From: Deltaproteobacteria bacterium
GTDB lineage: Bacteria > Myxococcota > Myxococcia > Myxococcales > Anaeromyxobacteraceae
Direction: 5' to 3'
Length of the DNA stretch: 64,000 bases
Assembly (NCBI GenBank): GCA_016214955.1
Contig: JACRMN010000030.1
Location: forward strand, 1-64,000
Part shown: in pieces, positions 40,532-43,890 of the stretch
Layout: each line of letters starts with the position of its first letter
Position numbering within the stretch: the first letter of the stretch is position 1
Translations under genes and position numbers: made by a program
The notes under the pieces: model-generated
What the model saw: the letters and a program-made list of their open reading frames with translations, nothing else
Database searches by the model: none
What the model was told of the DNA's origin: nothing

Positions 40532-40701
40532 ACCAGGGTTCGCGATTCGAGATCACCTGGCGGTGTCTCGAATCGCGCCCTGGTTTCGGTGATGTTGCCG
40601 GGGGCTTCGCCCCCGCCCCGCCGAGCAAAGCTCGTCGGGGCCCCACCCCGGAAACGGCCTCTGTTCCTGTGTTTCCGAATCATGCTCGGCCGTTTAGGCC
40701 G
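40530..40701. repeat. Palindrome cluster in a convergent spacer
   Basis: Five inverted repeats follow one another. AAACCAGGG (40530-40538) and CGCGATTCGAGA (40541-40552) pair with TCTCGAATCGCG (40566-40577) and CCCTGGTTT (40578-40586). CGGGGGC pairs with GCCCCCG (40599-40615). CCCCGCCGAGC pairs, with one mismatch, with GCTCGTCGGGG (40616-40640). CGGAAAC pairs with GTTTCCG (40649-40677), and CGGCC with GGCCG (40687-40701). The first, with A and T ends, could act as a bidirectional terminator for the converging genes. A REP- or MITE-like repeat is also possible. Confidence 0.75.
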
Positions 40702-40706
40702 CGGCC

Positions 40707-41333
40707 TCAGCCCCGGCGCCGGTCGAGGATGGCCTCGACCTTCCCGAGCGCCGCGTCGAGCGCGTCGGGGCCGAAGCGCTGGCCCCGCGACGCGGCGCTG
40801 AGGATGTACCGCTCCTTGCCCACCCGGAAGATGCGGTGGACGGTGAGCTGGCTCGACTCGTCCTGGAGGAGCACGGCGGTGAGGGGCGAGGCACCGCCCT
40901 GCGCCAGCCTGTCGGAGAGGGAGAGGAGGAGCGAGGCGCCGCCGGCCCAGGCATCGACGTCGCGGGCGCCGGTGGTGGCGGCCAGCGGGAGGCCGACCTC
41001 GTCGCCGAGGAGCAGGGCGTTGAAGCCACCGCGCGCGGCGATGGAGTCGAGCAGCCCGGGCAGCTCGCCCAGGGTGCCGTTGCCGGTCTCGATGCGGGCC
41101 AGCTCGCTGCCGATGCGCTCGCGGTCGAGGATGGGCGCGAGGGCGCGGGCGATCTCGGCCTGGACGGTGGAGGCGTCGGACTGGGACCGGCGCGAGAGCT
41201 CGGCGTCCAGCGCCTCGGCCTGTGCCGCCAGGGCGTGGCGGGCCTCCTTGCCCTGGCGGACACCCAGGAGGTAGCCGCCGGCCAGGAGGCTTCCGATGGC
41301 GCCGGCGGTGAGAAGCACGAAGGCGAGGGTCAC
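40707..41333 (-). CDS. Membrane-anchored roadblock/LC7-like protein
   Basis: The 208-residue product has one N-terminal membrane helix (LAFVLLTAGAIGSLLAGGYLLGV), a helical stretch with Glu/Arg (about 28-90) and a C-terminal domain with the roadblock/LC7-like pattern GFNALLLGDEVGLPLAATTG, LTAVLLQDESSQLTVHRIF and RYILSAAS. The GTG at 41333 overlaps the OmpA-domain stop by four bases, so the two are coupled. Roadblock proteins often act as partners of small GTPases. The identification of the domain is moderate. Confidence 0.68.
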   Translation of the reverse strand: MTLAFVLLTAGAIGSLLAGGYLLGVRQGKEARHALAAQAEALDAELSRRSQSDASTVQAEIARALAPILDRERIGSELARIETGNGTLGELPGLLDSIAARGGFNALLLGDEVGLPLAATTGARDVDAWAGGASLLLSLSDRLAQGGASPLTAVLLQDESSQLTVHRIFRVGKERYILSAASRGQRFGPDALDAALGKVEAILDRRRG

Positions 41334-41965
41334 GGGATGACCACCTGGCGCGTGTCGCGGTAGCAGGCCGCGGCGCCTCTGAAGTGGACCTCGACGCGGC
41401 GCTGTGCCGGCCCGTCGCCGGCGGCGCCCTCGAGGGGCTGGTAGGCGCCGAAGCCGCGGGCGGTGAGCCGGGAGGCGGCGACCCCGGCGCGGCGCAGGGT
41501 GGCGGCGATGCGCTGGGCCCGCTCGTGCGAGAGCGCCAGGTTGCGGTCGGAGCTGCCGACGGCGTCGGCGTGGCCGTCGAGCACGATCGAGACCTCCGGG
41601 TGCTCCTTCAGCCAGGAGGCGAGGCTCCTGGTCTCCCCCACCACCGGTGGCGCGGGCTCGGAGGAGTCGCGCTCGAAGCCGAGCACCACCGGAGGGCAAG
41701 AGGGTGGTGGTGCAGGCTGGGCCGGTGGTGGAGGAGAGGGGGAGGCCGCGGGGGGCGGGGCCTCGGGAGCGGGAACGGCTGCGGCAGCCGGAGCGGCGGG
41801 AGGAGGCGCCGGAGCGACGGCGGGCTCCGCCGTCGGCTCGGGGTGGAGGAGGTCGAGCCCCAGCCGGCCGGCGCCGGCGGCCGAGGCCGAGCCCAGGAGG
41901 ACGAGGGCCACCGCCAGCACCAGCGGCGCGCCCTCGCCGGGCGGCGTGACGGGCTTGACGGCCAT
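41330..41965 (-). CDS. OmpA-like C-terminal domain protein
   Basis: The 211-residue protein has an N-terminal hydrophobic segment, a Pro/Ala linker (about 45-90) and an OmpA-type peptidoglycan-binding domain (VSIVLDGHADAVGSSDRNLALSHERAQRI and LTARGFGAYQPL, given by ends). It should link an inner- or outer-membrane site to peptidoglycan. It is the third gene of the roadblock/ODP operon and starts 4 bases after the ODP stop. No flagellar MotB features were seen. Confidence 0.87.
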   Translation of the reverse strand: MAVKPVTPPGEGAPLVLAVALVLLGSASAAGAGRLGLDLLHPEPTAEPAVAPAPPPAAPAAAAVPAPEAPPPAASPSPPPPAQPAPPPSCPPVVLGFERDSSEPAPPVVGETRSLASWLKEHPEVSIVLDGHADAVGSSDRNLALSHERAQRIAATLRRAGVAASRLTARGFGAYQPLEGAAGDGPAQRRVEVHFRGAAACYRDTRQVVIP

Positions 41966-41968
41966 CGC

Positions 41969-42730
41969 CTAGGTGGGCACGCGCATGACCCGGAGCAGGT
42001 CGCTGCCGCACTCGAGCCCGTCGGCCCAGGTGATGAACCTGTTCACCATCTCCTTGCCACGGAAGAAGGCGCCGTGCTGGGGAGCGATGATCTCGATGTC
42101 CAGCTGGCGGGCCGACCGCACCCACACCCGCATGGCCCGCTTGGAGGCCATGTAGCGCCGGTGGAAGCCCTCCATGTACTGGAGGTGGGAGTCGAAGTCC
42201 GGGACCTCCGCGTAGTCGACGCCGAGCGAGGCCCCGAGGTCGCCGGTGTAGAGGATCTTGGAGACCGGGTCGTAGACCTGGAAGTTGCCGGGCGAGTGGA
42301 GGAAGTGGGCCGGGACGAAGGAGAGGCGGGTGTTGCCGAGGGGCAGCACCTGGCCCTCGTCGGGGATGGGCAGGAGGCGCGACTCCACGAGCCGGTCGAG
42401 GCCGAAGTGCGGGATGAAGCGGGTCCACAGCGACGAGATGTAGGCGGTGGCGTCGGTGGTCATCAGCCAGCCGTTGGTGGCGGCGACGATGTCCGGGTCC
42501 TGGTGTGAGAGGAAGATGTGCTTCAGCGAAGCCTTGCCGAGCTCGGCGAAGGTGCCGGACAGCACCTTGCCGTAGACCTTGTGCCCGCCCGGGTCGAGCA
42601 GGATGGCCTCGCTGGCGTCGATGATGAGGTGCTGGTTGGTCTGCACCGCGCTGCCGGGCGGCGAGACGTCCTCGAGGAGGACGTTGCGGTGCTTCCCGTC
42701 GTCGAAGAGTACGGTCCTGGGAGTTCCCAT
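41969..42730 (-). CDS. ODP-type diiron metallo-beta-lactamase-fold protein
   Basis: The 253-residue protein fits the flavodoxin-less relatives of flavodiiron proteins, such as the oxygen-binding diiron protein (ODP) of Treponema. Metal ligands are visible in SHQDPD (His76, Asp78, Asp80), PAHFLHSPG (His142 or His145), YTGDLGA (Asp164) and APQHGAFF (His219). The His that normally follows in flavodiiron enzymes is Ile81. ODP senses oxygen for chemotaxis. Here it is flanked by roadblock genes, which suggests a role in redox or polarity control; that is inference. Confidence 0.85.
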   Translation of the reverse strand: MGTPRTVLFDDGKHRNVLLEDVSPPGSAVQTNQHLIIDASEAILLDPGGHKVYGKVLSGTFAELGKASLKHIFLSHQDPDIVAATNGWLMTTDATAYISSLWTRFIPHFGLDRLVESRLLPIPDEGQVLPLGNTRLSFVPAHFLHSPGNFQVYDPVSKILYTGDLGASLGVDYAEVPDFDSHLQYMEGFHRRYMASKRAMRVWVRSARQLDIEIIAPQHGAFFRGKEMVNRFITWADGLECGSDLLRVMRVPT

Positions 42731-42740
42731 GGCGGCCTCC

Positions 42741-43106
42741 CTATACGACCTTGCGGAGGTCGTCGACCGCCCGCCGCATGTCCAGGAAGATGAGGCCGAG
42801 CTTGGCCTCGCGGCTGGCCAGCGCCAGCAGCACCGTGCCGGCGCTGGCGGAGATCATGACCGCGTAGCCGTAGCTGCCCCGCACCAGGACCTCCTCCACG
42901 TCGCCGCGCTCCAGCTCGCGGGCCGCGCGCGATCCCAGGGTCGAGAGGGTCGCGCTGACGCCGGCCACCCGGGACTCGTCGACGTGCTGCGGCAGTGCGC
43001 TCGCCAGCATGAGGCCGTCCTCGCTGATGAGCGCGCTGGCCTCCACGGCCGGCGAGGCCGCCTGGAGGTTGCGCAGAATTCGGTTGATGGTCTCTACCCG
43101 CGACAT
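42741..43106 (-). CDS. Roadblock/LC7-domain protein
   Basis: The 121-residue product is a single roadblock/LC7 domain (VEASALISEDGLMLASALPQ, then EEVLVRGSYGYAVMISASAGTVLLALAS), as in MglB, the GTPase-activating partner of the polarity GTPase MglA. The ATG at 43106 follows AGGTGA. It is the first gene of the operon with the ODP protein, 11 bases upstream. No MglA-like GTPase is in the window. Confidence 0.93.
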   Translation of the reverse strand: MSRVETINRILRNLQAASPAVEASALISEDGLMLASALPQHVDESRVAGVSATLSTLGSRAARELERGDVEEVLVRGSYGYAVMISASAGTVLLALASREAKLGLIFLDMRRAVDDLRKVV

Positions 43107-43396
43107 GGGATCACCTGTTCCCCGGCTCCCCCGAGCCCTTCCGGGAGCCCTACCGGGTAGCAACGGGCACGCCAGCGCCTGCTCCCGCGTAATCGCGGAC
43201 CATTCGCGGTCCTCCGTCGTCCGGGTGGGGCGAGATTGTCAGGTGGAGGGCGGGATCATCTTGTACGTTCACGTATGGTCAAGGCACGGATGTGGGACAG
43301 GGGCGCGGGTGGGGCCACACCCGGACGGGCGTGCGTTTTCTTGCGCCAGCGCAGATCCCGGGGATGCTGGGGCCATCCGCTATCCGGAGGAATCGC
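43107..43396. other. Divergent gap between roadblock genes, with a candidate operator
   Basis: This 290-base gap separates two divergent roadblock-type genes. The clearest structure is TACGT (43264-43268) and ACGTA (43271-43275), a perfect 5-base inverted repeat with a 2-base spacer, a possible operator. The rest is GC-rich. I found no -24/-12 box and no convincing -35/-10 pair, and no gene. Confidence 0.4.
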
Positions 43397-43735
43397 ATGG
43401 AACGCCGTGTCCACCGCAGCCCGCACCGCCAGGAGGCCCTCGGGCTCCTGCTCGAATCGCTCCGCAAGAGGCAGGATCTGGAGGCCGTGGCCCTCTCGAC
43501 CCAGGACGGCCTCCTGGTGGCCGGCGCCGGGGAGGTCGACCTGGAGCGCATGGCCGCCCTGGCGCCCAACAGCAACGGCCCGACGATGCCCTGGGGCGCT
43601 CGCACGCTGCACGTCGAGCGCTTCGACCAGTGGGGCACGTGGCTCTACCTGGCCACCGCGGGCGGCAGCGTCGGCCGCGCGACCCTGGCCGACCTGCGCC
43701 GCATCCTCTCCGAGATGCCGAAGCAGGCGGCGTAG
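43397..43735 (+). CDS. Roadblock/LC7-like protein, divergent
   Basis: The 112-residue product shows a roadblock-like pattern (LRKRQDLEAVALSTQDGLLVAGAGE and TWLYLATAGGSV). The N terminus is basic. The ATG at 43397 follows CCGGAGGAATCGC and gives the usual size; the upstream in-frame extension is not supported. It is divergent from the roadblock/ODP operon and 57 bases before selC. The domain call is moderate. Confidence 0.72.
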   Translation: MERRVHRSPHRQEALGLLLESLRKRQDLEAVALSTQDGLLVAGAGEVDLERMAALAPNSNGPTMPWGARTLHVERFDQWGTWLYLATAGGSVGRATLADLRRILSEMPKQAA

Positions 43736-43791: not shown

Positions 43792-43890
43792 TGGCGGTAG
43801 CGCACGGGAATCGAACCCGCCAACAGCGCCCTTCAGCACCATTCACCGGTTTTGAAGACCGGGCCCGGCACCAGCCTAGGAAGCGCTACC
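43792..43890 (-). tRNA. selC: tRNA-Sec (anticodon TCA)
   Basis: The minus strand folds as a selenocysteine tRNA. The 8-base acceptor GGTAGCGC (43890-43883) pairs with GCGCTACC followed by G and an encoded CCA (43794-43792). The anticodon loop is CTTCAAA with anticodon TCA (UCA), flanked by CCGGT/ACCGG. The D arm has six pairs with one bulged A. The T loop is TTCGATT, and there is a long variable arm. The 99-base length and 8+5 acceptor-T form match SelC, so UGA is decoded as Sec in this organism. Confidence 0.95.

Follow-up and report, generated by a model that had tools for sequence, protein, structure and literature searches.

In Treponema denticola, the oxygen-binding diiron protein ODP senses O2 for chemotaxis, coupled to a receptor with no sensing module of its own (PMC7666581). 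The conservons, which are the actinobacterial G protein systems CvnA-D, are operons that encode a roadblock protein, in many cases also a histidine kinase (HK) and sometimes an added sensor protein (PMC13343842). Here we examined an operon in a stretch of 64,000 nucleotides (henceforth the window) from a deltaproteobacterium of the Anaeromyxobacteraceae (assembly GCA_016214955.1, contig JACRMN010000030.1, positions 1 to 64,000). Its four genes encode a roadblock/LC7 protein (ROBL), an ODP-type protein, an OmpA-like protein and a predicted membrane roadblock protein (mROBL). Bacterial roadblock proteins are known mainly as partners of small GTPases. We propose, with a probability of about 0.6, that this operon encodes an envelope-tethered complex for oxygen or redox signalling with roadblock proteins at its core.

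The operon resembles TDE2498 and TDE2496 of T. denticola in its ODP family member, in its putative link to O2 signalling and in the pairing of ODP with a partner that lacks a sensing domain (PMC7666581). It differs in that this partner gene encodes a roadblock protein rather than a methyl-accepting chemotaxis protein (MCP), in that CheA is absent and in that genes for a putative envelope anchor are present. Unlike the conservons, it has no GTPase gene and does have ODP, OmpA and mROBL genes, and the module is found mostly outside the Actinomycetota. The MglA/MglB switch is comparable because MglB has the roadblock fold and because mglBA is encoded elsewhere in the host genome (at C4); however, the operon includes no GTPase, and genomes without MglA carry the same operon. 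There is also a likeness to the PATAN-type regulators of pilus motility, as the response regulator (RR) of the relatives consists of REC and DUF4388 domains, the latter of which we take to be PATAN, but the window operon lacks such a regulator and no pilus genes are linked to it. No described system of ODP and roadblock proteins was found in the open-access literature searched, although parts of one may have been described in work that is unpublished or available by subscription. The operon belongs to a conserved bacterial module that is apparently undescribed.

Predicted properties of the operon proteins

The first-pass annotation of the window had placed a tight minus-strand operon for roadblock, ODP, OmpA and membrane roadblock proteins here, and this was borne out by the positions of the four open reading frames (40707-43106; Table 1), by Pfam and by the predicted fold of the fourth protein. 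ROBL and ODP are separated by 10 bases and ODP and OmpA by 3, while OmpA and mROBL overlap by 4 bases. ROBL scored 45.1 bits against Robl_LC7, for which the Pfam cut-off is 23, and its PDB match is a roadblock protein. For mROBL, a Pfam search gave no significant family, the sequence alone being below the cut-off. Its AlphaFold2 model, built with 28 homologues, consists of a long N-terminal helix followed by a helix, two strands, a helix, three strands and a helix, which is the roadblock order of helices and strands. Foldseek placed MglB of Myxococcus (PDB 6hjm) at the top with an E-value of 7.5e-6 and a probability of 1.00. The long helix opens with a hydrophobic segment from residue 1, and the roadblock domain is C-terminal. 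Since the profile comparison of mROBL with ROBL (hhalign) was weak by itself, with 24% in one run and 58% in another, the assignment of mROBL to the roadblock fold rests on the structure model. The expectation that the first and the last genes both encode roadblock proteins, on which the first-pass annotation hinged, was upheld for ROBL by Pfam and the PDB and for mROBL, as modelled, by AlphaFold2 and Foldseek. ROBL was also seen in other lineages as the C-terminal domain of AAA ATPases (L107, 4112-5503; L087, 7977-9560; L208, 2468-4072) and of a receiver-domain protein (L094, 8872-9888).

The window ODP covers the whole Pfam ODP model (profile positions 1-194 of 194) and matches, along its entire length, two oxygen-binding diiron proteins of solved structure (PDB 6qrq, 2.9e-69; 6qnm, 1.4e-63). 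All of the candidate His/Asp ligand positions for the two irons, namely H76, D78, D80, H142, H145, D164 and H219, are identical in 6qrq and 6qnm and invariant in the ten sequences aligned. Judging from family membership and these residues, we infer that the window ODP binds or reacts with O2 at a diiron site.

In the OmpA-like protein, a single hydrophobic segment at the N-terminus is joined through a proline-rich linker to the OmpA domain at the C-terminus. Within this domain, D134 is conserved in 18 and R149 in all of 20 relatives; we take these to correspond to the peptidoglycan-site Asp and Arg of OmpA and Pal. MotB is an inner-membrane protein that grips the cell wall, and the OmpA-like protein has such a layout, to judge from its sequence. 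The envelope anchor suggested in the first-pass annotation fits both the membrane segment and the presumed peptidoglycan-binding residues. C90 and C201 flank the OmpA domain and are likewise invariant (20/20); they may form a disulphide with a structural role or act as a redox switch in the periplasm.

Conservation of the module and apparent exchange of its parts

An ODP-based scan of 84,980 species genomes yielded 80 loci, or 81 with the window added, from Myxococcota, Pseudomonadota, Planctomycetota, Acidobacteriota and one bin labelled Actinomycetota. ROBL was near ODP in 75 of the 80 loci and directly upstream in 65, counts that are biased upward as the seed alignment held mostly ROBL-linked ODPs. 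OmpA and mROBL occurred together in 40 of 81 loci (Fisher 1.6e-19, for loci that are phylogenetically non-independent). Searches that did not start from ODP gave a similar picture. ROBL profiles produced six strong matches in 195 Myxococcota genomes, all six beside ODP, the pair being sparse and patchy across these genomes. mROBL profiles found, in 399 Pseudomonadota genomes, one genome besides the search centre (G320), and it has the full ROBL-ODP-OmpA-mROBL set. The gene set and its order are far beyond chance, and the claim that the four genes are conserved as a set was substantiated by the co-occurrence counts. The carriers include methanotrophs, nitrifiers, photosynthetic bradyrhizobia and myxobacteria. 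In L112, a contig assigned to Acidimicrobiales by binning, the operon groups with those of Pseudomonadota, which would reflect misbinning or transfer.

Three layouts were seen. Layout A is HK-ROBL-ODP-RR-OmpA-mROBL; layout B, that of the window and also of Pseudomonadota, is ROBL-ODP-OmpA-mROBL; and layout C is HK-ROBL-ODP-RR-ParA-soluble roadblock. With the window counted, 24 of the 40 loci with OmpA and mROBL have no RR in between. The HKs have HisKA, HATPase and weak PAS domains. Roadblock proteins and HKs are combined in relatives of types A and C, but not in the window; in an hhalign control of ROBL against HK, a high score came from one HK seed that carried a ROBL domain, and this seed was removed. 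ParA was present in 16 loci and never with mROBL, which was present in 42 (Fisher p 1e-6, optimistic because loci are related), and the soluble roadblock protein after ParA is related to mROBL (hhalign 92%). The localisation device is exchangeable, being either OmpA with mROBL or ParA with a soluble roadblock protein.

The sensor, it seems, is exchangeable as well. Two Myxococcota clusters have the order Ser/Thr kinase-ROBL-OmpA-mROBL, with 4-base overlaps as in the window and without ODP. The gene after this set encodes a protoglobin in one (L201, 5673-9734; Pfam 8e-14, nearest PDB entry a globin-coupled histidine kinase) and a V4R protein in the other (L199, 3411-7079). This suggests that ROBL-OmpA-mROBL is a constant platform and that ODP, protoglobin and V4R are among its inputs. 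More tentatively, and at somewhat less than even odds, there may be a general GTPase-free bacterial platform in which a roadblock scaffold, either peptidoglycan-anchored or ParA-positioned, takes plug-in sensors (ODP, protoglobin or V4R) and histidine or Ser/Thr kinases.

These clusters bear on the possibility that ODP is an enzyme, for O2 or NO consumption or as a hydrolase, that is held at the envelope by the roadblock scaffold with no signalling. ODP shares its metallo-beta-lactamase fold with the flavodiiron reductases, and in some loci hemerythrin is fused to ODP or encoded nearby. However, the flavodoxin (flavin mononucleotide, FMN) domain of the flavodiiron proteins is absent from the 253-residue window ODP, in which Pfam shows only ODP/Lactamase_B domains. 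Genes for kinases and regulators recur in the operon, and unrelated sensor proteins accompany the trios without ODP. We regard a purely enzymatic role as very improbable. The fusion in locus L057 (2573-3931) joins a hemerythrin domain and an ODP domain in one protein of 452 amino acids.

Proposed oxygen signalling, and the chemotaxis and GTPase alternatives

In the oxygen or redox signalling complex that we propose, the diiron site of ODP would react with O2, as its family and conserved ligands suggest, and ROBL, the near-constant neighbour of ODP, would read the state of ODP. ROBL and mROBL may associate by way of their roadblock domains. To judge from sequence, fold and co-occurrence, mROBL and the OmpA-like protein would together keep the complex in a fixed position, as an anchor in the inner membrane that is held by peptidoglycan. 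Since HK and REC-DUF4388 RR genes join the operon in many Myxococcota relatives, the usual output is probably phosphorylation signalling. As the window operon lacks both of these genes, its output must pass through unlinked partners. The oxygen-linked signalling role put forward in the first-pass annotation is strengthened by these kinase and regulator genes and by the protoglobin in the sister cluster without ODP. Several points weigh on the other side. The HK and RR, whose presence would make a signalling role plain, are absent from the window; ODP could have an enzymatic function; the argument from sensor exchange comes from two Myxococcota clusters only; the contacts of ROBL with ODP and of mROBL with OmpA are deduced from adjacency, sequence, fold and co-occurrence; and every member is known here from genes and predicted structure.

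Alternatively, the module could be an accessory of chemotaxis arrays, with ODP modulating receptors and CheA as in T. denticola and the anchor placing the array. In T. denticola, the receptor TDE2496 is coupled to ODP, which affects how CheA is ordered (PMC7666581), one locus (L054) has a full che cluster (CheA, MCP, CheW, CheR and CheB) upstream of ROBL-ODP, and a second ODP in the window genome adjoins an MCP-like gene family. Yet among closely examined loci only that one has che genes, the usual partners being HK and RR, and the MCP-linked ODPs form a separate group that is about 42% identical. An array accessory is unlikely on this evidence. The second ODP gene of the window genome (L041, 8843-10240; G000:C12), whose product is about 42% identical, follows a gene for a protein of 203 amino acids, and receiver and HK genes lie downstream; at other loci, counterparts of the 203-residue protein show a weak match to the MCP signalling domain, and the arrangement resembles that in Treponema.

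The first-pass annotation had envisaged that oxygen state could be translated into cell polarity through an MglA-type GTPase under the control of ODP and the roadblock proteins. MglB, the roadblock protein that mROBL resembles in fold, is the GTPase-activating protein of MglA. MglA was present in the whole genomes of the tested module-bearing Myxococcota, the planctomycete and the acidobacteria, and MglA may act in trans in the window genome, which has mglBA elsewhere. In contrast, when MglA and MglB of the window genome were used as queries, an MglA gene was found in none of the 80 loci, and MglA had no match in any of 17 Pseudomonadota genomes with ROBL-ODP (five Bradyrhizobium, Methylocystis, Dechloromonas, Nitrosomonas, Competibacteraceae, Methylococcaceae and others), two of them complete (Bradyrhizobium BTAi1 and Dechloromonas SSD3). 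Sixteen of these 17 genomes carry the four-gene operon and one (Thiomargarita) ROBL-ODP only.

GTPases of the conservon type (PF03029) were also absent from most of the module genomes checked, including most of the Pseudomonadota, the exceptions being one such protein in G210, the clear exception, and five in G201, the bin labelled Actinomycetota, as expected for that phylum. No CvnD-type GTPase is among the window genes, and PF03029 is absent from the window genome. Searching with the Arf family lacked the specificity needed for a GTPase test. A distant Myxococcota cluster (L209, 126-2988; G056:C25) combines a protoglobin, a distant roadblock protein, a DUF4388-like protein and a conservon-like GTPase, and there may thus be oxygen input to a GTPase-linked roadblock protein elsewhere. 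Taken together, a small GTPase is not a required part of the module. GTPase-driven polarity was not supported and is quite unlikely as the function of the operon.

Genomic setting, origin and significance

The first-pass annotation had also noted a third roadblock-like gene (P0005) divergent from the operon. The gene is present, but its roadblock identity is doubtful and its product is only weakly roadblock-like. P0005 had no Pfam match, its hhalign comparison with ROBL reached 29% probability (E 6e-4, 48 columns), BLASTP of ROBL against P0005 found nothing, and its AlphaFold2 model was poor, with a predicted local distance difference test (pLDDT) score of 53. The P0005 and ROBL genes share a 49-bp inverted similarity of 73%. 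In locus L114, a relative of P0005 stands upstream of the HK of a full operon, with a Robl_LC7 match (E 0.0046) that falls short of the cut-off. The intergenic region between P0005 and ROBL contains one weak promoter-like match on the minus strand (43255-43282). A T-run terminator was searched for in the hairpin-rich region after the operon and none was found; one of the stems there is single-copy in the window.

Table 1 Features of the roadblock-ODP operon and its surroundings in the window.
Feature	Coordinates	Strand	Length (amino acids)	Basis
Roadblock/LC7 protein ROBL, operon gene 1	42741..43106	-	121	Robl_LC7 8.7e-12; PDB 7f8m 5.3e-28
ODP-type diiron protein	41969..42730	-	253	Pfam ODP 5.2e-70; PDB 6qrq, 6qnm
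OmpA-family protein, predicted peptidoglycan-binding	41330..41965	-	211	Pfam OmpA 4e-13; hydrophobic segment from residue 15
Predicted membrane roadblock mROBL	40707..41333	-	208	AlphaFold2 pLDDT 92.9; Foldseek MglB 6hjm; present in 42/81 loci
Divergent small roadblock-like protein P0005	43397..43735	+	112	Weak: hhalign, inverted similarity, L114 relative
Divergent intergenic region, possible shared control region	43107..43396	.		Position only
Hairpin-rich region just after operon, possible transcript end	40535..40706	-		Folding energy z-score -5.6
Selenocysteine tRNA gene (tRNA-Sec)	43792..43890	-

The operon and the divergent P0005 gene are missing from the other searched genomes of the family. 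Their slot is flanked by conserved speA/dodecin genes (and ilvD within the genus) on one side and a conserved nucleotidase-like gene on the other. The slot lies beside tRNA-Sec, and its genes differ in every examined relative, suggesting a hotspot of gene acquisition. We considered and rejected a mobile island inserted at this tRNA gene, as a search for a direct repeat of the tRNA end gave none and no integrase gene was seen in the vicinity. Although Pseudomonadota have exactly the same four-gene layout, horizontal transfer from them is not favored: in the ODP tree, the window groups with Myxococcota of layouts A and C rather than with the layout-B Pseudomonadota (Shimodaira-Hasegawa-like approximate likelihood ratio test 92, short search). 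Because of this position in the tree, the kinase and the regulator have probably been lost, and the short layout of the window probably arose by loss of the HK and RR genes.

The module can be tested in cultivated carriers, namely Bradyrhizobium sp. BTAi1, which has the window layout, and Minicystis rosea, which has the layout with kinase and regulator. If our proposal is true, a widespread module that joins ROBL to a diiron sensor of oxygen and to an anchor in the wall, with no linked GTPase, would be a second use of the roadblock fold. It would give a concrete way to test oxygen sensing at a fixed place of the cell, in cells that live across oxic-anoxic boundaries.

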